47,623 nucleotides of DNA, taken from the NCBI GenBank assembly GCA_002719335.1, contig PBHE01000005.1, forward strand, positions 12,330-59,952. The letters are read 5' to 3'. The stretch's first letter is position 1, and every line of letters starts with the position of its first letter. The stretch comes from Acidimicrobiaceae bacterium (GTDB taxonomy: Bacteria > Actinomycetota > Acidimicrobiia > Acidimicrobiales > Poriferisodalaceae). Under the pieces are notes generated by a model. It saw only the letters and a list, made by a program, of their open reading frames with translations, did not search any database and was not told the DNA's origin. Of this stretch, positions 15,537 through 44,231 are shown piece after piece. The position numbers and the translations under genes are program-made.

Positions 15537-15983
15537 TTAGGGTCGTTGGGTTTCGATCGCATCGATCAGTCGCCGGCCGTTTTTCAGCGACCATGTGATT
15601 GGGCCGTGCTTGGTGTCAGCGGTCACCAAGTCAGAAGAACCACTGCGCGTGATTTTCAGATTGATGACCGCGGCCAGCGGGAGTCGACCCTCCCACATTT
15701 GCGACTTTGATGTCCGGTATACCGCTTCATCCGTGACTTCCAAACTGACTAGCCGCGTGGCTCCCGCCTCATCGGTCTCGGTTACTCGCTGAAATCTCAA
15801 CACGGCTTCAGTGTGCCAGAGCAAGTAACCCGCGTCACTCCAATTCCAACACTGTCGAAGAGCTCTCAAGCGGGTCTCGATTTCGGTAATTGACTTGCGT
15901 GCCGAACTCAAACATGTTGGAATCGGTGCGTTATCAAGAGCGGTGCACTTCTGTGCACCCAGCAACCTGGGGTGGACACCCAA
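15537..15983 (-). CDS. Hypothetical protein
   Basis: 148 aa if started at TTG 15983; no ATG or strong ribosome-binding site marks the true start, and downstream starts are possible. The C-terminal half is a beta-rich pattern (LRFQRVTETDEAGATRLVSLEV, LPLAAVINLKIT, GPITWSLKNGRRLIDAI) resembling a small PH-like or bacterial domain. No family recognised. It is transcribed divergently from the sulfhydrylase gene. Confidence 0.5.
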   Translation of the reverse strand: MGVHPRLLGAQKCTALDNAPIPTCLSSARKSITEIETRLRALRQCWNWSDAGYLLWHTEAVLRFQRVTETDEAGATRLVSLEVTDEAVYRTSKSQMWEGRLPLAAVINLKITRSGSSDLVTADTKHGPITWSLKNGRRLIDAIETQRP

Positions 15984-16048
15984 GGTGCTTGCCTACCTTG
16001 TGTAGGGATATGGCTGAGGTTTAGCGACCGACGCAATGAAGTGTCCTA

Positions 16049-16132
16049 GAGATAGCCGTTTCCCGGCCATCTCACGGCGCAAGCATCTCTTTTGGTCCAC
16101 CCCTCTTAAGTGCCCAACACCACTAAGAGAGG
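16049..16132 (+). promoter_or_regulatory. Structured leader of O-acetylhomoserine sulfhydrylase gene
   Basis: Hairpin 1: GAGAT (16049-16053) pairs with ATCTC (16069-16073), with GCCG/CGGC stacked inside. Hairpin 2: CTCTTA (16103-16108) pairs with TAAGAG (16124-16129), extended across one bulged A by CC/GG (16101-16102 with 16131-16132). Hairpin 2 buries GAGAGG, the ribosome-binding site of the gene starting at 16138. The arrangement suggests translational control. It does not show the conserved core of the SAM riboswitch classes I know. Confidence 0.45.
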
Positions 16133-16137
16133 TAGTC

Positions 16138-17451
16138 ATGACCAACAGCTGGGGATTTGAAACGAAACAAATTCATGCAGGCCAGCAACCCGATCCAACA
16201 ACCGGAAGCAGATCAGTACCGATATATCAAACCACGTCATACGTTTTTCGAGATACCAATCATGCTGCCGATCTTTTCTCTTTGAGTGAAGTAGGAAACA
16301 TCTACACCCGGATCATGAATCCAACTCAGATGGTTTTGGAAGCAAGGCTTCAGGCCCTTGAAGGCGGAACTGAAACAGCTATTGGCATACCCGGAGCGTT
16401 AGCAGTTGCGTCGGGTCAAGCTGCAGAAACTCTTGCCATTTTGAACCTCGCTGAGGTAGGCGACCACATTGTCGCGTCTGCCTCCTTATATGGGGGTACG
16501 TACAACCTGTTGCATTACACGCTTCCCAAAATGGGTATCGAAACGACATTCATCGAAGATCCAGATGATCTAGAGGCCTGGGCTGGGGCTGCGCAAGCCA
16601 ACACCAAGCTCTTCTACGGCGAAACCATCGGCAATCCGAGGAACGATTGTCTAAACATCGCGGGGGTCGCACAAGTCGCTCACGACATCGGTGTTCCTTT
16701 AGTGCTTGACAACACTGTTGCGACCCCTTATTTATTCAACCCGTTGAGCCTCGGGGCGGACATCGTGGTTCATTCCATGACCAAATTTATTGGGGGGCAT
16801 GGTAACTCCATAGGCGGGGTAATCATTGACGGTGGCACGTTCGACTACGGGGCTAGCGGCCGATTCCCGAACTTCACCGAACCTGATCCGAGCTACCACG
16901 GGTTGGCCTATTGGCCCGCATTAGGTGCTGGCTCATTCATCATCAAAGCACGGGTGCAGTTACTTCGCGATATTGGTGCTGCTGTCTCTCCCCAGAACGC
17001 GTTTTATTTCCTGCAGGGCCTAGAAACGCTAAGTTTGCGAATGGAGCGGCACTTTACGAATGCTCAAGCAGTAGCGGAATACCTAGATGCTCACCCCAAA
17101 GTTGAGCAAGTGCAGTACGCGGGCCTATCTTCCAGCCCTTGGCATTCTCGTCTTCAGGCTTACGGAGAAGGCCGTGGCTATGGCTCGGTTCCTGCCTTCA
17201 CGATTCAGGGCGGAGTCGAAGCTGGGAAAAAGTTTATTGACGGCTTAGAGCTTCATAGCCATGTGGCAAATATCGGCGATGTTCGAAGTCTCGCTATTCA
17301 TCCCGCTTCAACAACACACTCCCAGCTCACCGAATCTGAACAGAACGAGGCCGGTGTTTCGCCAGGTTTAGTTCGTTTATCGGTGGGGCTCGAAACTCTC
17401 GACGACATTGTCGAAGATCTGGATAAAGGTTTCGCCGCATCTGGCACATAG
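16138..17451 (+). CDS. O-acetylhomoserine sulfhydrylase (aminocarboxypropyltransferase)
   Basis: 437 aa Cys/Met-metabolism PLP enzyme, ATG with GAGAGG upstream; the open frame upstream is not coding. FETKQIHAGQQPD and VPIYQTTSYVF open the protein, and YTRIMNPTQMVLEARLQALEGG is the phosphate region. The PLP lysine is in VHSMTKFIGGHGNSIGGVI, about residue 215. The long insertion and about 430-aa length match MetY rather than the 380-400 aa MetB/MetC. It makes homocysteine from O-acetylhomoserine and sulfide in methionine synthesis. The structured leader suggests regulation. Subfamily choice moderately sure. Confidence 0.88.
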   Translation: MTNSWGFETKQIHAGQQPDPTTGSRSVPIYQTTSYVFRDTNHAADLFSLSEVGNIYTRIMNPTQMVLEARLQALEGGTETAIGIPGALAVASGQAAETLAILNLAEVGDHIVASASLYGGTYNLLHYTLPKMGIETTFIEDPDDLEAWAGAAQANTKLFYGETIGNPRNDCLNIAGVAQVAHDIGVPLVLDNTVATPYLFNPLSLGADIVVHSMTKFIGGHGNSIGGVIIDGGTFDYGASGRFPNFTEPDPSYHGLAYWPALGAGSFIIKARVQLLRDIGAAVSPQNAFYFLQGLETLSLRMERHFTNAQAVAEYLDAHPKVEQVQYAGLSSSPWHSRLQAYGEGRGYGSVPAFTIQGGVEAGKKFIDGLELHSHVANIGDVRSLAIHPASTTHSQLTESEQNEAGVSPGLVRLSVGLETLDDIVEDLDKGFAASGT

Positions 17452-23804: not shown

Positions 23805-24557
23805 TCAACTCGTGAAGTGTTGGTTGATGGTTTGATGCCACTTATTACGCGACAGTTCGCTGTGAACTGCAGCCATACCGGTTGCATATTTGCTGAGTCG
23901 GACTGGCCGATGGCCACGTCGCCACAACGCACGGTCGATGGGGCCAGGGCCGCGGGGGGATTTCGTTTCAATCACCACACCTTTTATCAACGCTTCTTTC
24001 CCCACGACCGCTTGACACTTCACTCCCAAATCTGCGGTTAAACGCACCCCGTTCTCAACATCAACAACCGATATGCGTTCGTAGGAAGTCTGCAGAGTCG
24101 ATGTCAGCGTCGCAGCGAAGCCTTCTCTCCCCAAGACCTCATTTACGAACTGTGCGCCTTTGATCGTCAAGTTCGGGTCTAACGAAAAATCGTCGGGGAG
24201 ACGACGTTTCACACTTTGTCCACGCTGGTCGCGAAGCTTTACTTCCACCGTAGATTTCTGCGCATCCAGATATGTTCGGGTCCGCACCTTCCAACGCCTT
24301 CTGCGGCGGTGAGCCGTGGCACGAAATGATTCCAGATCCGTGGTATCGAAATACCAAGATTCATATGCGAACGACCGTTTCCCGGCTATTTCCAATGCAG
24401 TCAGGGAACCGGACACCATCGAGAAAAAATTGTTCGCTTCTTCTTCGCTGACTATATATTTCCGATCGAAACGCTGTTCGAGAGAAGCGAGGCTGTCCAT
24501 ACCTTCGACATCAGTGGCAGGGAACCGTTCCACTAGCGACTCAAACCAAAATGTCAT
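23805..24557 (-). CDS. VTC-domain protein (polyphosphate polymerase-like)
   Basis: 250 aa. RFDRKYIVSEEEANNFF opens the triphosphate-tunnel fold of VTC domains; YESWYFDTTDLESFRATAHRRRRRWKVRTRTY carries the basic tunnel residues, STVEVKLRD the EVK strand, and GVVIETKSPRGPG the KSP-type end strand. Yeast Vtc4 makes polyphosphate with this fold; bacterial members are largely uncharacterised. The start overlaps the DUF4956 gene by ATGA, and CotH lies further upstream, a recurring bacterial trio. Confidence 0.85.
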   Translation of the reverse strand: MTFWFESLVERFPATDVEGMDSLASLEQRFDRKYIVSEEEANNFFSMVSGSLTALEIAGKRSFAYESWYFDTTDLESFRATAHRRRRRWKVRTRTYLDAQKSTVEVKLRDQRGQSVKRRLPDDFSLDPNLTIKGAQFVNEVLGREGFAATLTSTLQTSYERISVVDVENGVRLTADLGVKCQAVVGKEALIKGVVIETKSPRGPGPIDRALWRRGHRPVRLSKYATGMAAVHSELSRNKWHQTINQHFTS

Positions 24558-25111
24558 GACTTCATTCGGTAATGGACATCGACATTGGTGCTGTCATTAA
24601 CCAAGTCAACCCGTCGAATTCTCACGCGACGCACTGAAACCTGATCAGTTCCGCCCAACAAATCCTCTAGAACTCGAATCAACTCACCGTTGTCGGCGTA
24701 CGCCCTATCGAGAATCATGTTTTGGTGAAAATGCCCTCTAAGTAGCGCTTGATGGTCACCAAGCCAGAGCGTCACCAGAACGGCTGCCATCAGAAGCGGG
24801 GATACATACGTTGGCTCAAACTGAACCCCGCCTAGGAGACCTAACGCTAGAGAGCAGAAGTAATAGGCAATTTCTTGTTGACCTAACTCTGAGGACCGCA
24901 ACCGGATAATCGACAGCACCCCAAATAGCCCTAACCCAAGACCAAGGTTGACTTCCACATGCGTGAACGCGGTGGCGATAGCCATCACACCGACGTTGAC
25001 TCCTAGAAGAGCAACGACCATGTCCCGTCTTCGATTGCGCGGGAAATACAGACAGAAGACCAAGACAAGCACTGCCACCAGGTCGATGCCAACCAACACT
25101 GCTCGATTCAT
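24554..25111 (-). CDS. DUF4956-family membrane protein
   Basis: 185 aa. Four hydrophobic helices (residues 5-22, 30-48, 56-66 region, 84-117), then a soluble domain of about 60 residues. The conserved stretch GLGLGLFGVLSIIRLRSSELGQQEIAYYF matches the DUF4956 signature. AGAGGAT precedes the ATG. Translationally coupled to the VTC gene; family function unknown, often paired with VTC and CotH. Confidence 0.85.
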   Translation of the reverse strand: MNRAVLVGIDLVAVLVLVFCLYFPRNRRRDMVVALLGVNVGVMAIATAFTHVEVNLGLGLGLFGVLSIIRLRSSELGQQEIAYYFCSLALGLLGGVQFEPTYVSPLLMAAVLVTLWLGDHQALLRGHFHQNMILDRAYADNGELIRVLEDLLGGTDQVSVRRVRIRRVDLVNDSTNVDVHYRMKS

Positions 25112-25189
25112 CGGACAATCCTCTTGGCCTGCGCTGTTAAATCGTTGTCCACCTTAAACCCTCCGACCCACAGATCATGGTTATGGAAA

Positions 25190-26602
25190 TCAGCCATTAG
25201 CTCGCGCGAAATCAAGAGATGAGCCCAACTTCGATAACGCCGCTTTCCACTTTTCTAATTCCAAAGCGTCTTGATGTGTTGCTGCTGCTTCCGATGTCGC
25301 GTCGTGAATCTGGCCTGCCCATTGCTTAAGAATGGCTCCGGTGCTTTCTGCCGAGAAAGGACCTTCCAGAAACGCGGCCCGAATTGCCTCGCTTTCGTCT
25401 ACAAACGTGGTCCACGTGCCGATCAACCGATCACACGTGGCGGACCATTGAGGAATATTCCATTGGCCGTATGGGAACGGCCGACAGTCGTTCGTAATTT
25501 CGCCCCACTTGTCGGCGATTGGGGTGACGGGGTTGGCGTCCGACACGATATTGGCGAAGGCGCTGTCAAGGTCCCAGGGAATCAGGTGAAGGCGGCCCAT
25601 AGCGGGCTCTTCGTACCAGTAGAAATTGTGGTTGTTGCAGCCGTCGAAGCAGTACCAATGTAAAGGGCCGTCATCGTTTCGGATGGCTCTATCGACAACA
25701 GCCCACCGAATTATTTCTTCGACGTCCATCCACTTTGCAACTATTTCAGGCAATTCGTTCTTCTCCGCCGCTGCCAGTTCTTCAGAGAAGGCAAGGATGT
25801 AATCGACTGTCACCTCGTCCTCTTCATTTGTCTTCAAGGCATCCCTGAACTCAGATCGTTTGCGGGCAGAGCCCTGGTGATTCAGAGGCCACACCTCCTT
25901 GTACAGATTCCCGTCTCCATCATCAAATTGTCGATCCACGAACCTTCCGTCGATCTGCTCAACAAACGAATACAGACCTACGTAATTACCGTTGATCACT
26001 AGGCGAGCGTGAGTTGCTCGCGGTGCCGGAACTCCCATCTTTCTGAAAAGCCAATATCCGAGTCGCTCATGCATTTGAGTCGGATCAAGGTTCATGGAAT
26101 GGAATTGAAGCTTTTTCACTCCCCAAAAAGTTCGCGAGCTGTCTTCCCAGTTGATCTTGACCTTCATCGAAAGTTTGGTGCAGGTCTTTGCTCCATCAGG
26201 TTCGAAAAGACTTCCACCAGCAAGGCATCCGACCCAAGCCCCGATTGATCCCTTATATCGGATGCCAACGGGACTAATGGTTTCGCCTTCAAAGGTAAGG
26301 CTTCCTTCCACATATTCTTCTTCACTGGGGTCGTCGTTGATCTCAGCGAAAGCCGCGTCTGAAATGGTGAGTTCAAAGGTATGGAGTAATTCTTGATCGT
26401 AGAGATAATCAGATAACCCGCTTTGCCAATTCGGGGAGGGAATCTCGACCGGGGCACCGACCGTGGTTACCGTTGGGTCCTCTTCGCCGATTTCGACTTC
26501 GCCTACTACCTTCTCAGAAGTCGTTGGGCTTGAACTGTCCGCAGCGACGCAACCTGAGGCCAGCACTGCCAGCAGCACAAAAACGTATTCCCGTCTCATC
26601 AC
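25190..26602 (-). CDS. CotH-kinase-family lipoprotein
   Basis: 470 aa. A lipoprotein signal peptide with lipobox LASGC lies at residues 14-18, followed by a Ser/Thr-rich linker. LHTFELTISDAAFAEI begins the CotH domain; WGVKKLQFHSMNLDPTQMHERLGYWLFRKMGVPAPRA and NGNYVGLYSFVEQIDGRFV are hallmark segments, and WDLDSAF carries the metal-binding Asp pair. CotH proteins are atypical secreted protein kinases. GTG 26602 and ATG 26599 are alternative starts; TATAAG lies 6 nt before the GTG. Confidence 0.86.
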   Translation of the reverse strand: MMRREYVFVLLAVLASGCVAADSSSPTTSEKVVGEVEIGEEDPTVTTVGAPVEIPSPNWQSGLSDYLYDQELLHTFELTISDAAFAEINDDPSEEEYVEGSLTFEGETISPVGIRYKGSIGAWVGCLAGGSLFEPDGAKTCTKLSMKVKINWEDSSRTFWGVKKLQFHSMNLDPTQMHERLGYWLFRKMGVPAPRATHARLVINGNYVGLYSFVEQIDGRFVDRQFDDGDGNLYKEVWPLNHQGSARKRSEFRDALKTNEEDEVTVDYILAFSEELAAAEKNELPEIVAKWMDVEEIIRWAVVDRAIRNDDGPLHWYCFDGCNNHNFYWYEEPAMGRLHLIPWDLDSAFANIVSDANPVTPIADKWGEITNDCRPFPYGQWNIPQWSATCDRLIGTWTTFVDESEAIRAAFLEGPFSAESTGAILKQWAGQIHDATSEAAATHQDALELEKWKAALSKLGSSLDFARANG

Positions 26603-27234: not shown

Positions 27235-28773
27235 CTAGACCTGCTTGATGTGCCCTTCCCAATGACGTGACCGTAGCTGTCTCTTAAGAATCTTACCGGT
27301 GGGGTTTCGGGGCAGTTCAGCTACAACTTCCATCGATCGTGGCAGCTTGTAACCCGCGAGGCGGCCACGACAGAACTCCATGATCATCTCCAAGTTCACC
27401 GTCGCATCTGGCTGTGTGACCATCACCGCGTGCACCCTTTCACCAAACTGTTCGTCAGGAACTCCAATCACAGCAACATCTGTAACTCCAGGGACCTCGT
27501 ACAGCAACGCTTCGACCTCAGCGGGGTAAACGTTCTCACCACCCGTCACCACCATGTCTTTAGCTCGGTCCATGATGGTCAGGTAACCCTCAGACCGCAC
27601 CGCTATGTCGCCGGTCTGGAACCACCCGTCAACTATGGCCTCTTTGGTCGCCTCGGAGTCTTCCCAATAGTGATGCAAAACCGATGGTCCTTTGGCGAGA
27701 ATTTCACCCGGCTGACCATCGACTACATCTTTCCCTTGCCGATCAACCAAACGGACTTGGAATCCAGGGTTGACACGCCCCGCGGATTGACGGTGAGGGC
27801 TAGAGGGCTCGTGATCGGCCGGCGAGAGGGTGGTAAGCGCCCCTGCCACTTCCGTCATCCCGTAAAACTGTCGAAGTCGGACCCCTGGAAAGAGAGCTTC
27901 GACTTCTCGCAAGAGCTCCGGGGCGATCGGCGATGCTCCGTAGGACATCTCGCGCATCGACGACAGATCGGGTGCGTCAACTCGGGTTCGGACAGCTTCA
28001 ACCATGGCATGGAACATCGCCGGAACCGCAGTCAGGTACACCGCTCCCACCTGTTCGATATCTTCGAGAATCGATTGTGGATTGAATCCAGCTCGAAGAT
28101 GGAGTTCGGCGCCGTTTGCAAGGCCCATCAGACTGTTTGATAATCCCGCAAGGTGAAACATGGGTGCCGCCATGATGTGGCGAGCACCGACGAACATTCC
28201 GGCGTTCTCAGCGCTATCAATCAAGGCCGACCGCGCGAGAGCCTCGTGTCTAAGGGGGATGCCTTTAGCTCGGCCAGTAGTGCCGCTAGAAAACCCGATA
28301 GCGAACACGTCACTGGGTTGAGGAGGGGGTGGAAGGTTGCCATCAACCGATTCCGTTGCATCCGGCACCCAAGTCGGCGGGCACTCCTGGTCCGGGTGTA
28401 GAGCGATGCGAATCGGAGGGAGGTTTGACGGGAGCTGATCAATTAGTTTCTGACCCGAAACGATAGCCACCGGTTGGACAAGGTCGAATAGAGGCCCATG
28501 TTCAGCCGGAGTGAGTCGCCAGTTCAACAACGCGGGAATAGCTTGTAGCCGAGCGAGGCCGAATACGTGGACTACAAACGATGTCGAATTGGTGTCTAGA
28601 ACGCCCACTACGTCGCCTCGAGTAACCCCAACAGCGTTCCACCCCAACGCACAGCGTTCGATCTGCTGCTGTAGCTCCGCGTAGGTGAGCTGATCTCCAT
28701 ACTCATCAACTAGCGCCACCGCGTCGGGATGCAGTTCAGACCTCCAGCGCAGCAGTTCATTCAAAGACAGCAC
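27235..28773 (-). CDS. Class I adenylate-forming acyl-CoA ligase
   Basis: 512 aa from GTG 28773, four bases after the stop of the monooxygenase gene; upstream in-frame codons lie inside that gene. A3-like motif FSSGTTGRAKGIPLRH, A5 YGMTEVAG, A7 WFQTGDIAV, A8 MVVTGGENVYPAEVE and the C-terminal PRNPTGKILKRQL with the catalytic Lys are all present. It would activate a carboxylic acid to its CoA thioester. It is the last gene of the minus-strand catabolic block; substrate unknown. Confidence 0.9.
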   Translation of the reverse strand: MLSLNELLRWRSELHPDAVALVDEYGDQLTYAELQQQIERCALGWNAVGVTRGDVVGVLDTNSTSFVVHVFGLARLQAIPALLNWRLTPAEHGPLFDLVQPVAIVSGQKLIDQLPSNLPPIRIALHPDQECPPTWVPDATESVDGNLPPPPQPSDVFAIGFSSGTTGRAKGIPLRHEALARSALIDSAENAGMFVGARHIMAAPMFHLAGLSNSLMGLANGAELHLRAGFNPQSILEDIEQVGAVYLTAVPAMFHAMVEAVRTRVDAPDLSSMREMSYGASPIAPELLREVEALFPGVRLRQFYGMTEVAGALTTLSPADHEPSSPHRQSAGRVNPGFQVRLVDRQGKDVVDGQPGEILAKGPSVLHHYWEDSEATKEAIVDGWFQTGDIAVRSEGYLTIMDRAKDMVVTGGENVYPAEVEALLYEVPGVTDVAVIGVPDEQFGERVHAVMVTQPDATVNLEMIMEFCRGRLAGYKLPRSMEVVAELPRNPTGKILKRQLRSRHWEGHIKQV

Positions 28774-28777
28774 AACT

Positions 28778-29905
28778 TCACTCAGCCGGATCTTGACGTG
28801 CCAGTAGCCCTTGGCCGTACGTGTCGTAGGCGACATTTGAGGCCACATGGTGCATGGCTGAACCGTGAGCGTCTCGAAAACATCGTTGAAGGACGCTGCG
28901 ATTAAAGATCGCTGCCGCTCCGGCGAAGTGATACAGCCGGCTCACAGCGTTGACGGAACTCTCCGTGCAAAAAGCGAGCATCGCAACGACCTTCTGTTCT
29001 TCTGAAGAACTCAACCCGTTGTTTCTCGCACATTGATCATCAGCAGCGGTTAGTTCTCCCAAACCAAATGCCTTGGCCGCTTCTACCTCAAGCTGCGTTT
29101 TACCCAACTCATATTGAAAAGCACCCCTGTCCGCTAAGCGGCCATCGTTGCCTCGGGATTTAGTAGTTGCATATCTGGCGGTCTCATCGATCAGGCGCTG
29201 ACAAACTCCGAGTGAAAACCCAAGATTTTCACCCGCTACATACGCCTGATAACCGAGCGTGTACATAGGGCCGCCTCGAAGCGGACTGGCCAAAGGGTCG
29301 GCTAATAGGTGGTCTGGGACAAAAACCCTGTCAAGGGTTACATCCACACTGCCTGTTCCCTTGAGAGCCATCACATCCCAGTTGTCACTGAGGGACACGT
29401 CATTAGCGCTGACGGCCGCAAGGCGCACTGAGAGGTGCTCCGTGTTCTCAACTCCAGCAAGAAAAAACCATTCAGCGTGGGCTGCGCCGCTGGCGTATCG
29501 ATAGTGCCCACTCAACTCAATGCCCCCGTCAACGACACTGAATGTGCCAGAAGGAGCGGCAACTGCTCCGAGAAATGGCACGGCGCCGGATCCAAAGACG
29601 GTGTCGATTCCTACGTCGTTCAGCTTTGCTCCGCAGATACCTGCGGCGCCGGCGTGGTTAAAGCCTGTCCACCCCGCAGTGGGGTTTGAGTAACTAAGAG
29701 CCTCGAAGTAGCGAAGTTGCGACGCCATCGGCAATTCATCGCCACCGATCTCTGATGGCACCTTCACTAGCGGCACCCGAAGTTCTCTCATCACGTCCAC
29801 AAGCGCCGGCGGCGCCGTATTGAGTAGTTCGGCCTCTTCGGCAGTCCCATCGAGTTCGCTGTGACGAGAACTGATCTCCGCCAATAGAACTTCAATCTCT
29901 CTCAT
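28778..29905 (-). CDS. Acyl-CoA dehydrogenase-fold flavin monooxygenase (HsaA/DszC type)
   Basis: 375 aa from ATG 29905 (GGAG six bases upstream). It has the acyl-CoA dehydrogenase fold, but the middle region (LSGHYRYASGAAHAEWFFLAGV) and the C-terminal RDAHGSAMHHVAS with paired His follow the two-component FMNH2- or FADH2-dependent monooxygenases such as HsaA, DszC and IndA. These hydroxylate aromatic or sulfur compounds and need a separate flavin reductase, not seen in this block. It also resembles reductive-type acyl-CoA dehydrogenases; the assignment is moderately firm. Confidence 0.75.
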   Translation of the reverse strand: MREIEVLLAEISSRHSELDGTAEEAELLNTAPPALVDVMRELRVPLVKVPSEIGGDELPMASQLRYFEALSYSNPTAGWTGFNHAGAAGICGAKLNDVGIDTVFGSGAVPFLGAVAAPSGTFSVVDGGIELSGHYRYASGAAHAEWFFLAGVENTEHLSVRLAAVSANDVSLSDNWDVMALKGTGSVDVTLDRVFVPDHLLADPLASPLRGGPMYTLGYQAYVAGENLGFSLGVCQRLIDETARYATTKSRGNDGRLADRGAFQYELGKTQLEVEAAKAFGLGELTAADDQCARNNGLSSSEEQKVVAMLAFCTESSVNAVSRLYHFAGAAAIFNRSVLQRCFRDAHGSAMHHVASNVAYDTYGQGLLARQDPAE

Positions 29906-30067
29906 CGCCAACTCCGTCTCAAAGGCTGTCCCCCCACAACTTCTCTCATTTTCAGATCAGCCTTCGGGATCGTTTTGAGTTTTACCCAACGGCCTAAGAA
30001 ACTCAACTCGATGCGGCTGGGCGGCGTTGACTAGAGGAGCTTCGACGGGGCACTGCGAACTGATGTT

Positions 30068-30982
30068 TTAGGTCAGCCACTCGATAAGGGCGGCGACAAC
30101 GTCTTCACCGCGATCGTCTTGTAAGAAATGGCCACCCGGCTGAAACTCCTGGTGCGGTTGTCCGCTGGCCCCGGGCACTCGGTCAACGAATTCATTATGG
30201 AGGTGACCTAGGACCCGGTCGTCAGGGCACCACAAGGTCAAAAATGGCTTTTCCCATCGGTCAAGCACTTCCCAAGCAGCGAGGTTTTCGTTCACGCCGC
30301 CATGGCTGGGGGTGATTGGCACCAACGTTGGGAACTGGCGAGCCCCAGCCATGTGCGACTCGTCAGGAAACGGAGCACGGTACCCGTCCATCTCCGCTTC
30401 AGTAAGCTCTCGCGCTGCAGTTGCATGTTGGAGCATCGCCCCGGCGTCCATGAACTGCATACTCTGCGACTGCTGGAGCCATTTGTCGAAGCCAGCGCCA
30501 ATCGATTCTCCTATAGGAAGTCCCGTATTGCCGATAGCAATCCGTCCGAATCGGTCTTGCTCTTCCGCGGCCACTCGTAAGCCAATCAAACCCCCCCAGT
30601 CTTGTGCGAACAGGACTGATTCACGGAGGCCGATCACGTTGAGGAATTCCTTTAGCCAAGCCACGTGTTGCGCATAGGAATAAGCAGATCGATCGGTTGG
30701 TTTGTCAGAGCGACCAAAGCCAATCAGATCGGGAACCACACAACGGAACCCTGCGTCTACAAGCGGGGGGATCATCCTCCGATACAAATATCCCCAAGTT
30801 GGCTCCCCGTGAAGGAGCAAAATGGGGACACCGGCGTCAGGTCCAACGTCTACGTAGGCCATCCGAAGTCCGTCAACTTCGACGTAGCTCGCTTCGTAGT
30901 CGAAGTCAGCCAGCGATGCGAATCGTTCGTCTGGAGTCCGGACAAACTCTGTTCCGTTGCGTGAGGTCATGCTCTGTGACAT
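30068..30982 (-). CDS. Haloalkane dehalogenase-like alpha/beta hydrolase
   Basis: 304 aa. LLLHGEPTWGYLYR is the oxyanion region of haloalkane dehalogenase subfamily I, and nucleophile D128 followed by W129 (FAQDWGG) matches the DhlA Asp124-Trp125 pair. A catalytic acid candidate is D255 (CPDD) and the base is H285 (GGHFLQDD). It would release halide from a haloalkane giving an alcohol. The start ATG is preceded by TAATGT at 7 nt. Epoxide hydrolase or ester hydrolase function remains possible, but HGEPTW and DW favour dehalogenase. Confidence 0.8.
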   Translation of the reverse strand: MSQSMTSRNGTEFVRTPDERFASLADFDYEASYVEVDGLRMAYVDVGPDAGVPILLLHGEPTWGYLYRRMIPPLVDAGFRCVVPDLIGFGRSDKPTDRSAYSYAQHVAWLKEFLNVIGLRESVLFAQDWGGLIGLRVAAEEQDRFGRIAIGNTGLPIGESIGAGFDKWLQQSQSMQFMDAGAMLQHATAARELTEAEMDGYRAPFPDESHMAGARQFPTLVPITPSHGGVNENLAAWEVLDRWEKPFLTLWCPDDRVLGHLHNEFVDRVPGASGQPHQEFQPGGHFLQDDRGEDVVAALIEWLT

Positions 30983-31045: not shown

Positions 31046-32581
31046 TCACTTCGAGTAAGTGGCGCGCAATCGATTTTTCAGAATTTTTCCGAGTGCGTTT
31101 TTTGGCATCATCTCGACGAATTCGATGCGTCGAGGGATCTTGTATCCCCCGATCAGCTCTCGACAGTGGTCGATGATCGCCTTGCTATTCAATGAGGTTT
31201 CGGGCTTGGCTACGATCACGGCTGTGACTATTTGGCCGAGGCGTTCGTCAACTGTCCCGATAACCGCGCATTCGTGAATGTCTGGATGTTGGTAGAGCGC
31301 TGTTTCCACTTCGGAGGAGTAGACGTTTTCGCCCCCACTGATGATCAAATCCTTTTCTCGGTCGATGAGATAGACGTATCCGTCGTCGTCTATCCGAGCA
31401 ATGTCTCCAGTACGTAGCCAACCGTTACTCAATGCTGCTGCTGTTTCTTCGGCCATGTTGAGGTAGCCCTTAGTGATGTTGGGGCCGCGCGCATGGAGGA
31501 CACCTGTCTCCCCTGGTGCCAAGTCGTCGCCTTCGGAATTGCTCACCTTGAGATCGACAAGGCAATTTGGTTTGCCGACTGAGGCAAGCGTGGGTGAGTC
31601 GTGTTCGATGGCTCGCTGAAATTCGGCGGGATCGAACACTGTTAGGGCGGGTGAGGTTTCGGTGAGGCCATAACAGTTGAACAGTTGCGTGTGCGGGAAG
31701 CCTTGGGCTGTGCGCCTGATCCACGCCGGATCCATGGGTGATGCTCCAAAGCCCATGAGTCTGAGCGACCTTGTGTTCGCGGACTCCAATACTGGATCGG
31801 TGAGGGTCATCATGAGCATTGTGGGAACTGCGATTGTCATCGTGACTTGGTGTTCTAACACTGCATCCAGGAAAGCTGCTGGTGAAAATGCTGGAACGTA
31901 GACGTGTGCCGCCCCCATCAAGATCCAACCGGTTGCTAATAGGTCAGCGGAGTGGAACATTGGCGCTAAATGTAAGTACGTGTCATCAGGTTCACCTCGC
32001 GTCGCAAGGGTGAAGCCTGCCGCGCACGACAGGATGTTGGTGTGACTCAAACGGACGCCTTTGCTGCGCCCGGTAGTGCCGCCGGTATAAAGAATGAGAG
32101 CGTCATCGTCGGGCGACACATCAGATAGGCCGACTCCTGCCGCCGTTTTAAACAACTGGTCGTAGTGCGGGATGCCGGCGCTACTTTCACCGTCAAGGCA
32201 GATCAACTTGTCGCGCCACGGTGCCAGCTCAGTCATGTCAAAGATCGGAAGAAAGTCGGCTTCAACGAAGACCACTTCGCAAGCTGAATCCTCAAGGATG
32301 TGGGCAATCTCTACTGGGGCTAGCCGCCAGTTGACGGGAACAGCAACGACACCTGCATGAAAGGCTCCCCATTTCAGTTCATCAAAACGAATCGAGTTGC
32401 GGGCATAGATGGCTACACGTTCACCTGAATTAATTCCGAGGCCACGAAGCAAGCCAGCGGCAACGGTGATTCGCTCACTGAAATCGCGCCAGGTGGTTTC
32501 ACCTTGGCGGTCGCGCGTGGCTGGCCGCTTACCAAAGTGACGTCCGACACGGACCATCGCTTCACCCAGCGTCGGCATCAT
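31046..32581 (-). CDS. Acyl-CoA synthetase
   Basis: 511 aa, ATG with AGGA seven bases upstream. Adenylate-forming motifs LILYTGGTTGRSKGVRLSH, YGLTETSP, WLRTGDIARID, LIISGGENVYSSEVE and MPKNALGKILKNRL (catalytic Lys) are all present. It resembles medium/long-chain acyl- or aryl-CoA synthetases. It lies 40 bases after the small partner of the iron-sulfur pair. Together with the second ligase at 27235 it gives the block two CoA-activating enzymes of distinct sequence. Confidence 0.9.
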   Translation of the reverse strand: MMPTLGEAMVRVGRHFGKRPATRDRQGETTWRDFSERITVAAGLLRGLGINSGERVAIYARNSIRFDELKWGAFHAGVVAVPVNWRLAPVEIAHILEDSACEVVFVEADFLPIFDMTELAPWRDKLICLDGESSAGIPHYDQLFKTAAGVGLSDVSPDDDALILYTGGTTGRSKGVRLSHTNILSCAAGFTLATRGEPDDTYLHLAPMFHSADLLATGWILMGAAHVYVPAFSPAAFLDAVLEHQVTMTIAVPTMLMMTLTDPVLESANTRSLRLMGFGASPMDPAWIRRTAQGFPHTQLFNCYGLTETSPALTVFDPAEFQRAIEHDSPTLASVGKPNCLVDLKVSNSEGDDLAPGETGVLHARGPNITKGYLNMAEETAAALSNGWLRTGDIARIDDDGYVYLIDREKDLIISGGENVYSSEVETALYQHPDIHECAVIGTVDERLGQIVTAVIVAKPETSLNSKAIIDHCRELIGGYKIPRRIEFVEMMPKNALGKILKNRLRATYSK

Positions 32582-32621: not shown

Positions 32622-32978
32622 TCATCGTCGAGTTGGTGGCGGATCGCCCGTGTAGAGATTCTTCACTCCACCCTCTTGATACGAGGCTGCAGCGGCATCC
32701 TTAAAGCGAGCCGAGGCCTCGTATTCCTCTATGGGATATTCATCATGTTCGGCCACCACTCGGATCTCGGTCACGTCTCGGATGTCAAGCCCTAACCGTT
32801 CCGCTATTTCAGCGTCCGACAAACCACGTTTTCGGGTGCCATCGTTTGGCAAAAACTCGTTGATATCAACTTGATAGGAATTGGTAAGAGCCAACACTTC
32901 AGCTCTGTAGCGGTCGTAAAGGTCTGGGTCGACGACGTGGAAACCGTTGAGTTCTCCTCGCTCTATCGGGCTGCTCAT
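32622..32978 (-). CDS. Small hypothetical partner of the iron-sulfur pair
   Basis: 118 aa from ATG 32978 inside an ATGA overlap with the upstream iron-sulfur gene; the frame further upstream is not coding. LSDAEIAERLGLDIRDVTEIRVVAE has a helix-turn-helix-like pattern, but the acidic protein (ends GDPPPTRR) looks more like an enzyme subunit than a regulator. No cysteine is present. No family recognised; the tight coupling suggests it is part of the same complex. Confidence 0.6.
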   Translation of the reverse strand: MSSPIERGELNGFHVVDPDLYDRYRAEVLALTNSYQVDINEFLPNDGTRKRGLSDAEIAERLGLDIRDVTEIRVVAEHDEYPIEEYEASARFKDAAAASYQEGGVKNLYTGDPPPTRR

Positions 32979-33832
32979 ATAAGCACCCGCTGTTCCGTGC
33001 CCACCGGGCATGCACGAATACATTCGAAGCACTGCCCTTGGCTGACTCCCGAATATGTGATTGACCACATAGTTCGTGTAAAGAAACTGCCGTAAAGGAT
33101 CATCTTCCGTTTTCTGGCGTCAGGCTCGTCCAGAACTCGTTCGAGGGCGGCTTGATAGCCGGGGGTCCAGTAGTGATACACCCGGTCGCGGCATTTTTCT
33201 TCGTTATAGCGCCGTTTGATCACTAACCCTTCTTGGATTTCACCTCCCAAGCAGCCACCGTCGTCGATTGGGCAAACCGCCATGCATGGAGTTGTCCCTT
33301 TTTCATCCCACATCTCCACGCATTGTGGCGCCGGACAAGCAGCCTCTTGTAACGGCCCGTCGACTGGAAGGGGAAGCGTGGTCAAAATTACGGTTAAGTA
33401 GAGAAAGCCATAAGTAGGGTCAAGAACTGGGCCGGCCAAACTTGCACTACCTGCCCCTGACGCGATGGCTGCAGCTTTAAAATCAAGAAATGCTTTGTCG
33501 TTCTCATCTGTGGACGTCGGAACGTTGAGCGCGTAGTACCCGAAAGTATCTTCGATGTGTCGCGCGACAGAACTACCCAGCGCAGCCATTCGGTCAGCTG
33601 TGCCGACAGTTTCCATCACTTCAACCCGAGGGCTTTGCCATTCAGCGGCGCGAGGAGCGGCTCCACCGAGCACGATCATCGACTTAACGTCCGTCAATAG
33701 GTCTGATGGACGAAGGCCGGGTTCAGCGTCTTCGAGAAGAGCTGGGTCGCCTACCCTGGCAACTTCGGCGCCCCTTTTTCGGGCCATTTCAAGTAATCCA
33801 GACTTGATCGATACCCAATCCAGTTCATCCAT
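32975..33832 (-). CDS. QueG-like double iron-sulfur protein, copy B
   Basis: 285 aa from ATG 33832, which overlaps the preceding stop as TAATG. Nine cysteines at 166, 171, 183, 187, 194, 214, 268, 271 and 275 match copy A exactly with an offset of 12, including TPCMAVCPIDDGGC and QCFECIRACPVG. A GLG-type turn is replaced by ASGAGSASLAGPVLDPTYGFLYL, as in the QueG/reductive-dehalogenase iron-sulfur region. Likely binds two [4Fe-4S] clusters and forms a heterodimer with copy A. Epoxyqueuosine reductase activity is not claimed: the length is shorter and the context is catabolic. Confidence 0.75.
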   Translation of the reverse strand: MDELDWVSIKSGLLEMARKRGAEVARVGDPALLEDAEPGLRPSDLLTDVKSMIVLGGAAPRAAEWQSPRVEVMETVGTADRMAALGSSVARHIEDTFGYYALNVPTSTDENDKAFLDFKAAAIASGAGSASLAGPVLDPTYGFLYLTVILTTLPLPVDGPLQEAACPAPQCVEMWDEKGTTPCMAVCPIDDGGCLGGEIQEGLVIKRRYNEEKCRDRVYHYWTPGYQAALERVLDEPDARKRKMILYGSFFTRTMWSITYSGVSQGQCFECIRACPVGTEQRVLI

Positions 33833-34725
33833 TATTTCAACTTTCGTCGGTACCGACCTACGGGGCAGACGCGCATGCACTCAAAGCACTGGGAGACGCT
33901 CTCCTTGTACCTGCCGATCGAGGACATGTTTCTTCGAAAATCGTCCGAGTAGATAAGTTCGCGTCGTTCGTCCGCGTCATCGATTCCAGTCAAAATCTCG
34001 ACCTGCTTGATGTGTCCCCGTATTCCGAAGTTCATGGCGCGGGTAGAACAACGTTCTCGGTCGAAGAAACTGCTCGTGATCTCACCGTCTTCAATCGTGG
34101 CGTCGATGCAACCGCCTTCATCGGCCGGGCACACCGCCATGCAAGGTGTTTTCCCTTCCATCTCGTACATGCGCACACATGACCGAGCGGGGCACACATT
34201 CTCTTCGAGTTGGTGATCCGGCGTCAGCCGCATAGTGGTGATAGCAGCCGCAAAGAACATAATCCCATAGGTCGGGTTAAGAATGATGTTTGCGGCTATG
34301 GACCTGGTGCCTAGCCCGGCTAACACGGCTGAAAGCATCATGCTCAGCGGCGGTTGTTGCCCAGAAGTAGGCAAGGCTGGGGCGTGCATAGCTAAATAGC
34401 CATGAGTTCGTTCTATATGTTCAGCAATAACGATCGATGCAACGTTTTCGCGAAAGTCGTAGCCGGTGATCTCCATCAATCGTCGATTGGGGCTTTGCCA
34501 GGCCGCATTTGTTGGGCCAAGGGACGCGGACACGACGACGCTCTGGGCACCTGGAAGAAAATCTTCTGGCCTGTGTCCTACCGGGACATACTCGTTGAAC
34601 GCATCTGCCGCAGCGACGCCGACAAGCGTTGCCCCGGCGGTTATCCCAACTTGTTTGATGGCGTTTGTTACGACCTCTAGGTCGCCGGGGTCAGTCGCTT
34701 CGACTTCCCCCTCAACTGTCGTCAT
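33832..34725 (-). CDS. QueG-like double iron-sulfur protein, copy A
   Basis: 297 aa, with AGGGGA near the ATG. The N-terminal region (about residues 20-120) is followed by GLGTRSIAANIILNPTYGIMFF, the motif near the corrinoid/iron-sulfur domain of QueG and reductive dehalogenases. Cysteines at 178, 183, 195, 199, 206, 226, 280, 283 and 287 include TPCMAVCPADEGGC and QCFECMRVCPVG (CxxCxxxCP). First gene of a three-gene coupled unit. It may carry electrons or bind cobalamin; corrinoid residues cannot be judged by eye. Confidence 0.75.
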   Translation of the reverse strand: MTTVEGEVEATDPGDLEVVTNAIKQVGITAGATLVGVAAADAFNEYVPVGHRPEDFLPGAQSVVVSASLGPTNAAWQSPNRRLMEITGYDFRENVASIVIAEHIERTHGYLAMHAPALPTSGQQPPLSMMLSAVLAGLGTRSIAANIILNPTYGIMFFAAAITTMRLTPDHQLEENVCPARSCVRMYEMEGKTPCMAVCPADEGGCIDATIEDGEITSSFFDRERCSTRAMNFGIRGHIKQVEILTGIDDADERRELIYSDDFRRNMSSIGRYKESVSQCFECMRVCPVGRYRRKLK

Positions 34726-34863: not shown

Positions 34864-35655
34864 CTACTTCGTTCTTCCATAGAAGGTTTCAAGTGCCGAC
34901 GCCGATAGCCCGACACCGGGCTCATCGTTGTAGGCAAACACTGCCAGGACACGGGTTACCGAACCTTCCGTCGGCGTCACCCGATGCAAAGCATTTCGAC
35001 CCCGAAAAAGCACTAGATCACCCGGATCAAAGTTGAGTTGGGAGATATTCTCAGCACCGTTAAGAACTGCGTCAACTCGGTCGAAAGCCATTTCCCCAGT
35101 ATCTGAGTCACGGACTTCTGGCACGTACTCAAAAATTCCGCCGCTTTGGGGCTGTTGAAGCAACGTAGTCACCGCGAATGATGAGTTGTCGAAGTGCCAT
35201 CCAAGCTCGCGTCCTCTCGGCGCGTAGTGAACGTTGATGGATGAAAAGCTATCCGCATAGGGATACACAGCTTCCACACCAAGTAACGCGCAAAGGAATG
35301 CTCGAAATCGATCATCTTCATACACATCGCGTAACGGAGAGTCCATAGATATTTGATCATCAGCGATAAGACCCTTGCTGCTCACGAGTTGGCGATTAAA
35401 CGCATGATCATCGGAAAATTGTGGGTCTTGGGGGGTGAGATAGACGTTGTGAGTCGAGTTCGCATAGAAAGCTTCTCCTTGGCGAGCCACAGATTCAGCA
35501 ACGACACGACTTATGAATTTGGACCTGAAAAACCCTCGGAGAACTAAAGCGCCAGAATTATTGAACTCCGACAGTGCCTGATTTCTATAGTCCAGGTCGC
35601 TGATCGGGTGTCGCTTCCAGTCAATCCAGGCATCAGCCAGCGGTCCGGAAATCAT
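34864..35655 (-). CDS. 2-oxoglutarate/Fe(II) oxygenase (PhyH-like)
   Basis: 263 aa. The double-stranded beta-helix facial triad is visible: H154 and D156 (GWHFDNSS) and H224 (NALHRVTP), with R235 as the likely 2-oxoglutarate salt-bridge residue. The N-terminus (ALSEFNNSGALVLRGFF) is typical of phytanoyl-CoA dioxygenase-like enzymes. It would hydroxylate a small substrate or free/CoA acid. It follows the Rieske oxygenase by 44 bases, so the two probably act together. Confidence 0.8.
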   Translation of the reverse strand: MISGPLADAWIDWKRHPISDLDYRNQALSEFNNSGALVLRGFFRSKFISRVVAESVARQGEAFYANSTHNVYLTPQDPQFSDDHAFNRQLVSSKGLIADDQISMDSPLRDVYEDDRFRAFLCALLGVEAVYPYADSFSSINVHYAPRGRELGWHFDNSSFAVTTLLQQPQSGGIFEYVPEVRDSDTGEMAFDRVDAVLNGAENISQLNFDPGDLVLFRGRNALHRVTPTEGSVTRVLAVFAYNDEPGVGLSASALETFYGRTK

Positions 35656-35699: not shown

Positions 35700-36857
35700 T
35701 TAATTCGAGTCACCATCAGGGCAACGATCGAGGCCTTCGAAGCGATCCGCCAACATGTTGTAGAAGCGATGCAAAGATGCCTCATAACGCGGAGACAGAC
35801 GCCCACCGCCAAATCGACCCCTGTCAATGCCCCTTTGAGCTTTCTGACAGATCTCAATGTCCTGATCGTTCACCAAAGCCCAAAAGTCGACCAATCGATC
35901 TAGATCTAGGGGGCTCGGATCGTGAGGGGTTGACCAACTTATGTGTTCGCGACTCCTGCCCACTCCGAGAGGCTCAAGCAGAAATGTGCATGTGTGATTT
36001 GGTAGAACCGTCAGCATCACGTTGGGGAACAGGGCAATGTGACGGCCGCTCTCGGCATCAGAGGCGGACAGACCAGTCGCGTTGGGTAACGTCGTCCACT
36101 CGCCGTTCTCACCTGCCGAAACGGGGGTTGTAGTTTGGCCGCAGTATCGGCCCGGTCCCTGAAATCGATAATGGTCATCGACCCGGCTGACCTTAGCCAG
36201 CTCGGGGTGAACCCAAGCTAGGTGGTAGTACTCTTGAAAATTTTCTGTAAGCAGTTTCCAATCTGCTTCGACCGTGTACGCGGCGGTTTTGCGAACTGCG
36301 TATCGTTCGAGTGCATAGCCGGCGAGTCGCTCTTCTAGATCCCCAAACCAACTCGTGAGGTCCGGGACGTCAGAGTTCAGGCTGACCCAAACGACGTTTA
36401 CGAACTCGCCAACGCACACCGAACGAAGACCAAAATCATCTAATTCGAAGTTCTCCACTAGTTCTTTCTCGAAAAGTGGGGTGGCAATAAGCCTGCCCTC
36501 GAGATCAAACGTCCAACGGTGATACGGGCATCGTAAAACGGTCCCGATCTCTCCGTCTTGCTCGACGAGTTCAGTCCCTCTATGTGAGCACGAATTGAAG
36601 TAGGCGCGAAGTTCACCTTGATCGTTGCGGGTAATGATGATTGAGGTGCCGGCGATTTCGCGAACAACGACGCGCCCTACTGGAACCTCGTCGACCATAG
36701 CCACACCGCACCAACCTTTACCGAAGATCGCGGCTCGTTCTTGCGCGTGGTAATCGGGGTCCGTGTACGCCTCTGGAGGCAACGTGGTCGAATTGGCCAC
36801 ATCTTCGCGAATGTTTGCCCAGGCCTCCGGCCGGCTCCAGTCTTTCACCGAAGACAA
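35700..36857 (-). CDS. Rieske non-heme iron oxygenase (alpha subunit)
   Basis: 385 aa. The Rieske [2Fe-2S] ligands are C90, H92 (FNSCSHRG) and C110, H113 (LRCPYHRWTF). The mononuclear iron site has H212 and H217 in NFQEYYHLAWVHPEL, with the acidic ligand in the C-terminal LVNDQDIEICQKAQ segment. The layout resembles choline/glycine-betaine/stachydrine-type or aryl dioxygenases. No ferredoxin or reductase gene lies in the block, so electrons must come from elsewhere. The start may be TTG 36857 or GTG 36848. Confidence 0.87.
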   Translation of the reverse strand: MSSVKDWSRPEAWANIREDVANSTTLPPEAYTDPDYHAQERAAIFGKGWCGVAMVDEVPVGRVVVREIAGTSIIITRNDQGELRAYFNSCSHRGTELVEQDGEIGTVLRCPYHRWTFDLEGRLIATPLFEKELVENFELDDFGLRSVCVGEFVNVVWVSLNSDVPDLTSWFGDLEERLAGYALERYAVRKTAAYTVEADWKLLTENFQEYYHLAWVHPELAKVSRVDDHYRFQGPGRYCGQTTTPVSAGENGEWTTLPNATGLSASDAESGRHIALFPNVMLTVLPNHTCTFLLEPLGVGRSREHISWSTPHDPSPLDLDRLVDFWALVNDQDIEICQKAQRGIDRGRFGGGRLSPRYEASLHRFYNMLADRFEGLDRCPDGDSN

Positions 36858-43634: not shown

Positions 43635-44231
43635 TCAACATTTCACTCCCCTACCTGCGCAATAGACGCATCCGCCTCGCCCTTGTTTTATTGACGAATG
43701 TCGCGGTGTTACTTCGCGTCCACAGGCGTCACATCTACATCGCCACGGGATCTTCGACCCTGGATAGGGCTCTAAGGGTGTCATGCCAGCCGCGGCCATT
43801 AACTCTCTCGCGTCCTTTTCGTTGACCTTTCGAGACACCGAACGTTTCTTGTTGGCGCAAGTTCGACAACCGCCACCGTTACTTTTCACATTGTGGAACG
43901 AGGGCGAACACCTGGTTCCACAGATCGTGCATTTACACAGCCACGCGGCCTTAGCCCCTGGATAAGGTTCCAGCGGTAGGAGCCCTGCTGATCGCATCAC
44001 CGGCACCGTTTCAACGTCAGTGAAGCGGCGAGACGATGACCTTTGTTCAACGCCACAGAAGCGGCATCCACTTCCTCTCTTCACGGACGTGTAGAGCGGC
44101 GTAACTTCATGGCCGCAGCTTTCACATTTGCATTTCCATGGGGTATCGGCGCCTGGGTACGGCTCAAGAGGCGTGAATCCAGCCCTTTGCATGACGGGCA
44201 AAGTTTCGGCGTCGGTTAAACGGTGGCGCAT
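43635..44231 (-). CDS. Triple-repeat zinc-ribbon protein
   Basis: 198 aa made of three repeats of about 65 residues. Each has the element GxxPLEPYPGxxxxW, then CxCxxCG (C34/36/39, C99/101/104, C165/167/170) and CxxC about 17 residues later (C56/59, C122/125, C188/191), joined by TP..HS.VK.G.GG. Similar treble-clef repeats occur in proteins tied to homing or phage endonucleases and DNA binding. No nuclease domain is present here. An in-frame TGA lies eight codons before the ATG. Probably nucleic-acid binding; function unknown. Confidence 0.7.
   Translation of the reverse strand: MRHRLTDAETLPVMQRAGFTPLEPYPGADTPWKCKCESCGHEVTPLYTSVKRGSGCRFCGVEQRSSSRRFTDVETVPVMRSAGLLPLEPYPGAKAAWLCKCTICGTRCSPSFHNVKSNGGGCRTCANKKRSVSRKVNEKDARELMAAAGMTPLEPYPGSKIPWRCRCDACGREVTPRHSSIKQGRGGCVYCAGRGVKC

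Follow-up and report, generated by a model that had tools for sequence, protein, structure and literature searches.

Three consecutive genes, which we name A, B and C, make up a compact trio of about 2.1 kb on the minus strand of the stretch of Acidimicrobiaceae DNA that we analysed (47,623 nucleotides, hereafter the window). Gene A (33832–34725) codes for a QueG/RdhA-superfamily protein of 297 residues with nine cysteines. Gene B (32975–33832) codes for a paralog of A, 285 residues long and also with nine cysteines, while gene C (32622–32978) codes for a small protein of 118 residues, predicted to be all-helical and helix-turn-helix-like, without any cysteine. As read in the window, all three are open frames of the minus strand. 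The TAA stop codon of A overlaps the ATG start codon of B in the string TAATG, and the end of B overlaps the start of C as ATGA, in keeping with the coordinates, strand and overlaps proposed in the initial annotation. Both a Tat motif and a membrane-like segment are absent from 42 A and 42 B sequences, and the best reading of this absence is that the three proteins would be cytoplasmic.

The cysteines of A (positions 178, 183, 195, 199, 206, 226, 280, 283 and 287) and those of B (166, 171, 183, 187, 194, 214, 268, 271 and 275) differ by a constant offset of 12 in all nine pairs, just as the initial annotation had claimed. This is not a matter of chance, since A and B are homologous and align from end to end. 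The spacing common to the two families, C-x4-C-x11-C-x3-C-x6-C-x19/20-C-x53-C-x2-C-x3-CP, recurs in all 32 A homologs and in 31 of 32 B homologs, the lone exception (locus L021) being cut by a contig end. Long spacing in the segment C-x4-C-x11-C, together with the stretch of 53 residues ahead of the last motif, is the signature of the family. The divergent A proteins of Rokubacteria (L118–L127, ten loci out of ten) have their fifth cysteine shifted to CP-x-C. Eight of the nine cysteines align with the canonical two-cluster pattern of single-copy short relatives and do not vary among the 22 A and 22 B sequences of our alignments; the ninth, Cys194 in B, is extra. We infer that each twin provides eight ligands for two [4Fe-4S] clusters. 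These two predicted cluster sites rest on sequence, because the ferredoxin half of the B structure model is of low confidence.

Compared profile to profile, the A and B families align over their whole length with 34% identity (E 1e-83). They are paralogs, issued from an ancient duplication on the fold of QueG, reductive dehalogenases and CblC. Pfam gave no usable match for A or B. In NCBIfam, the reductive dehalogenase family TIGR02486 (cut-off 160.35 bits, reached by neither) matched A with 14.3 bits (E 0.028) and B with 26.5 bits (5e-6), and the QueG family TIGR00276 (cut-off 200 bits, again reached by neither) matched A with 13.0 bits (E 0.038) and B with 18.9 bits (6e-4). Against the PDB, the family profile of A retrieved QueG at E 0.03 and that of B at 0.0036, and a joint profile that included the short relatives found QueG 5d08 at 1e-9 and PceA 4uqu at 6e-7. 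Against the QueG profile, that of A scored 95% (E 3.6e-8), with a match extending into the first cysteine motif, and that of B 20% only (E 0.001). Among the iron–sulfur subunits a structure model was available for B only, the fold of A being taken from its homology to B. This AlphaFold model has a mean pLDDT of 71; its N-terminal half is good, and its C-terminal, ferredoxin half lies mostly under 70. It has 46 PDB matches under E 0.001, all of them QueG or RdhA, with CblC coming next. The Z scores are 14.5 for QueG (152 residues), 11.9 for PceA, 9.9 for the B12 chaperone CblC and 7.2 for CblD. B, as modelled, is shown to have the N-terminal cobalamin-domain fold of the QueG/RdhA/CblC superfamily, a fold that A would share by homology.

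A tree of 58 rows places all A sequences on one branch (95/99) and puts the B sequences to one side, a placement that is weakly supported (72/18, 70% of bootstraps). The two branches are separate, run roughly parallel across phyla and stand apart from both QueG and the short relatives, with the reservation that the tree program warns of long branches, which makes the outer joins unsure. Profiles, fold and tree agree with the earlier view that the twins are related to QueG and to reductive dehalogenases while being shorter.

Could A and B simply be a diverged QueG that acts on tRNA? The closest solved structure is indeed QueG, but we find the idea hardly credible. The genome of the window has its own QueG, above the family cut-off (G000:C26:38951-39955, 230.7 bits), and so do eight of ten relatives that carry the trio, one of the other two falling just under it (198.7) and one having weak matches only. 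A and B reach 13–19 bits where 200 are required, are shorter, lack Asp134 and sit on branches of their own. With this separate gene in place, neither A nor B is the QueG ortholog of the genome, and the initial annotation was right in not regarding them as plain QueG orthologs. This genome also has, on a different contig (L050 175-2280, G000:C40), a 701-residue homolog of NpRdhA-type dehalogenases, with E 1e-199 to 4ras.

Catalytic positions were located by hand count on a HMMER alignment, and an error of one residue is possible at Tyr246 of PceA, a residue named in PMC10008544. This position corresponds in A to an invariant Asp90, next to an invariant Tyr89 and within an invariant GYDFREN motif, and in B to Ala, Ser or Thr. 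Two residues further on stands an Arg that never varies in the alignments of A and of B, and that PceA has as well. The position of QueG Asp134, a residue named in a PDB title, is occupied by Gln in the A protein of the window and by a variable Asp/Asn in B. As for the functional residues Asn272 and Arg305 of PceA, their positions are conserved in neither A nor B. The Tyr89–Asp90 pair, invariant at the very site where B has Ala, Ser or Thr, points to A as the likelier catalytic subunit of the two.

When A was used to search species-level genomes, 32 loci were retrieved. Going by record titles, they belong to Acidimicrobiia (12), Acidobacteriota (15, including Holophagales and Thermoanaerobaculia), Rokubacteria (2), Planctomycetota (2) and Tectomicrobia (1). 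The organism of the window is a near relative of Acidimicrobiales/Acidimicrobiia MAGs, the A proteins of L001 and L002 being 99% identical to its own. With B searched as a single sequence, the A+B pair is present in 10 of 61 relatives. With a B profile, it is present in 10 of 297 genomes from the phylum of the Acidobacteriota locus L015, in 12 of 95 from that of the Rokubacteria locus L020, and in 2 of 246 and 1 of 5 genomes of the Planctomycetota and Tectomicrobia panels. All 35 positive genomes have exactly one A and one B, adjacent on one contig. Among 396 genomes of the window's phylum the pair occurs in the window's own genome only, while in each of five others a lone, distant single-copy relative is found (E 1e-11 to 1e-13). 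A search of plasmids with A gave no match.

Gene C goes with the pair. It comes after B in 30 of the 32 loci. At L021 a contig end cuts B, and the remainder of B followed by C is found on another contig of the same genome; at L029 (genome G453) C sits on a separate contig, unlinked from A and B. An independent search for C hit the very genomes that have A+B, 10 of 61 among the relatives and 12 of 95 in the Rokubacteria panel, and gave nothing in the remaining 51 and 83 genomes of these two panels. The third partner that the initial annotation had attached to the twins is thus found in exactly the 22 A+B genomes and in 0 of 134 others, and when ten A+B genomes from several phyla were searched, all ten had C too. 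Overlap of A with B is seen at 21 of 32 loci, and of B with C at 15 of 30, gene gaps in relatives being approximate since the genes were placed by tblastn with start codons chosen by a script. A few loci are looser: 2.8 kb and a kinase-like gene separate A from B at L021, and gaps of about 0.2 kb exist at L014, where the B frame was found in part, and at L029. A, B and C are an obligate trio, a tight three-gene unit.

What might C be? The description of this protein as free of cysteine holds for the 12 Acidimicrobiia loci (L001–L012) and fails in other lineages: C has one or two cysteines in the other 18 of the 30 loci where it follows B, and from 0 to 3 in Rokubacteria L118–L127, where the sole zero is a fragment cut by a contig end. 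The protein is well conserved, with 25 invariant columns in an alignment of 22 rows. No useful match was found in Pfam, NCBIfam or PDB sequences, the Pfam helix-turn-helix families being hit at E 0.03–0.1. Its model has five helices (pLDDT 71), and Foldseek gave no match under E 0.001 (best E 1.3). The best structural match has a Z of 6.5, and most matches are helix-turn-helix domains (sigma region 4, NarL), which agrees with the sequence, bearing in mind that a Z under 8 to helical folds may be chance. As modelled, C looks like a helix-turn-helix protein. It would then be tempting to see in the trio a redox- or corrinoid-sensing regulator, with A and B sensing through their clusters and C binding DNA. 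We consider this improbable: the likeness to sigma region 4 and NarL is of the kind just cautioned against, C is mostly acidic (pI 4.58 in the window, median 5.28 of 38, range 4.54–9.46), the helix that would recognise DNA hardly varies from phylum to phylum and contains invariant Glu and Arg, and C accompanies A+B one to one across these phyla. In view of this strict co-occurrence and conservation we lean towards a subunit rather than a transcription factor.

The genes that surround the trio in the window are, as the initial annotation had it, of a catabolic kind, and all are on the minus strand. Upstream come a 2-oxoglutarate Fe(II) enzyme resembling HalD/WelO5 (34864–35655), with an HFD metal motif, which lies beside the trio in close relatives too, and a GbcA-like Rieske oxygenase alpha subunit (35700–36857). 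Downstream are an acyl-CoA ligase (AMP-binding; 31046–32581), an alpha/beta hydrolase of the haloalkane dehalogenase family (30068–30982; 379.6 bits, NF002043 cut-off 265), an HsaA-like flavin-dependent monooxygenase with an acyl-CoA dehydrogenase fold (28778–29911) and a second acyl-CoA ligase-like ORF (27235–28848); in L002 and L008 the counterpart of this ORF is hit when the first ligase is searched by tblastn. We rejected a halogenase role for the HalD/WelO5-like neighbour, as HFD is found in every copy in which the motif was read; this motif presumably points to a hydroxylase.

In loci L001–L008 the Rieske, 2-oxoglutarate and ligase genes recur in most cases, with gaps mainly at contig ends. 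Elsewhere the company changes. A luciferase-like oxidoreductase, encoded on one strand or the other, comes after C in 14 Acidobacteriota loci, and tblastn found no ligase there. In Rokubacteria an acyl-CoA ligase is near the trio in L020, L025 and seven of ten further loci (in L120 a protein of the branched-chain-transporter type comes after it), and such ligases are near the trio in three phyla. In L020 (7258-7980) and L025 (2471-3190), A begins where a PaaA-like di-iron gene ends, a gene that stays below the PaaA cut-off (105.7 of 280 bits). The trio is the constant part, and its surroundings are, where they can be named, those of oxygenase and CoA-ligase catabolism. Because the neighbours differ by lineage, no single substrate follows from them. 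No electron donor was recognised among the identified neighbours.

Farther away in the window, a SAM-I/IV riboswitch (15926–16041, plus strand, 43.4 bits) lies just upstream of an ORF (16036–17451) that we take to code for an O-acetylhomoserine sulfhydrylase. A run of three genes on the minus strand (23805–26602) presumably specifies VTC-domain, DUF4956-type membrane and CotH-type proteins, and a protein of 198 residues (43635–44231, minus strand) contains three similar cysteine-rich repeats (LEPYPG...W.C.C..C).

With such neighbours, A and B might be corrinoid-free iron–sulfur carriers that feed electrons to the nearby oxygenases, C serving as a docking subunit. An oxygenase-type gene stands beside the trio in several lineages (Rieske and 2-oxoglutarate, luciferase-like, PaaA-like), and neither the QueG nor the PceA catalytic residues are retained. 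Yet the types of oxygenase are unrelated to one another, at many loci none was identified next to the trio, and the part of the protein that matches known folds is precisely the cobalamin-domain half, with the Tyr–Asp pair invariant in A. We see this role as possible, but unlikely.

Rokubacteria invite another thought, that the trio belongs to a corrinoid methyl-transfer route in which a MetE-like core methyltransferase would receive the methyl groups. In two of these genomes a MetE-like gene (L118 2-1000; L119 9084-10079, about 332 residues) lies 1 to 6 nucleotides upstream of A, with a UroD-type, MtaA/CmuA-like gene farther upstream in L119, and in four more a MetE-like gene is found within about 9 kb of the trio. 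Core methionine synthases use methylcobalamin in vitro, according to PMC7857596. Against it, MetE-like genes exist in 58 of the 95 genomes of that phylum, most of them without the trio, and no MetE-like match was seen beside the trio in the other loci searched. The QueG/RdhA fold, moreover, is to our knowledge not that of a methyl-corrinoid carrier. All in all, this route strikes us as very improbable.

The explanation that we prefer, and to which we would give about an even chance, is that A, B and C form one cytoplasmic three-component oxidoreductase, probably corrinoid-dependent, in which A is catalytic. A and B would derive from the old duplication of a QueG/RdhA-like protein, each keeping the N-terminal cobalamin-domain fold and a ferredoxin-like part with two [4Fe-4S] clusters, and would most likely act as a heteromer. 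Cellular ferredoxin or flavodoxin might be the source of electrons, which would pass one at a time through the four clusters of B, as second iron–sulfur subunit, and of A to a low-potential centre located in A. Known homologs of this fold have a base-off corrinoid as this centre, and A would probably have one too. A could then perform the reductive step, in which it might take off a halogen or an oxygen, or reduce an epoxide or some other activated group, the substrate being a carboxylate or a CoA-linked intermediate supplied by the neighbouring oxygenases and ligases. C would be the small helical, helix-turn-helix-like subunit, required for assembly or for substrate docking. Homology, the gene trio, the cysteine pattern, the N-domain fold of B and the strict co-occurrence are established; we infer complex formation, the clusters, the role of C and the choice of A as catalytic subunit, and both the corrinoid and the class of substrate are guesses. 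We count several observations against it: no cobalamin riboswitch was found near the trio in the 17 sources searched; QueG Asp134 and PceA Asn272 and Arg305 are not kept; B reaches 20% against the QueG profile and the ferredoxin half of its model is poor; the neighbours vary with lineage; C is unlinked in G453, a gap separates A from B in L021 and the B branch is weak.

A bolder version of the preferred explanation can be formulated, though we regard it as doubtful. The trio might be a corrinoid reductase of a new kind, heteromeric and tolerant of oxygen, which cooperates with oxygenases in aerobic catabolism and has the helix-turn-helix protein as an obligate structural subunit. By analogy with QueG, which takes oxygen from an epoxide on tRNA, it might – again doubtfully – take oxygen (from an epoxide, for example) or a halogen off CoA-linked intermediates.

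We found no description of this trio in open-licence papers. It is a real, conserved and uncharacterised three-gene system of the QueG/reductive-dehalogenase superfamily, shared by marine and soil bacteria. Few chemistries are known for the QueG/RdhA fold, and each of the solved enzymes that have it houses, as far as we know, its cobalamin site and its two clusters on a single chain. A conserved version made of two paralogs and a partner, found across several phyla of uncultured bacteria, would represent a new layout and perhaps a new reaction. The trio would also be a candidate for B12-type reductive chemistry in the carbon cycling of sea and soil. Its compactness means that it can be expressed and tested directly.

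How does this system compare with those already known? With QueG, the epoxyqueuosine reductase (5d08, 5d6s), A and B have in common the N-terminal cobalamin-domain fold, a T-x-x-x-x-x-P-D-like segment ahead of the first cysteine motif and eight cluster cysteines in the same order. They differ from it in being a two-gene pair with a third partner, of about 290 residues each, in their first motif (C-x4-C-x11-C-x3-CP instead of C-x2-C-x2-C-x3-CP), in the extra ninth cysteine and the 53 residues that precede the last motif, and in lacking Asp134. The short single-copy QueG-like proteins of L052–L055 (about 265–330 residues) belong to the same superfamily and have the eight-cysteine pattern, but they occur as one gene per genome searched and occupy a separate branch of the tree. 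In L053 and L055 the gene after the short QueG-like one resembles what we take, from its sequence, to be a B12-binding radical SAM protein.

PceA (4uqu) and NpRdhA (4ras) share with A and B both fold and cluster order. Tyr246 of PceA, by contrast, is Asp in A and Ala, Ser or Thr in B, and the positions of Asn272 and Arg305 are changed. Unlike reductive dehalogenases, A and B have no Tat motif or membrane-like segment, and both halves of the pair keep predicted clusters. The T7RdhA of Acidimicrobiaceae (PMC10008544) is a separate, longer and single protein. CblC/MMACHC and CblD/MMADHC resemble the B model by their nitroreductase-like fold (Z 9.9 and 7.2). These two are a pair of homologous partners as well, but are not known to carry iron–sulfur clusters, whereas A and B have the predicted cluster ligands. 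As to duplication itself, NpRdhA has a duplicated cobalamin domain within one chain, while A and B are a duplicated pair in two chains.
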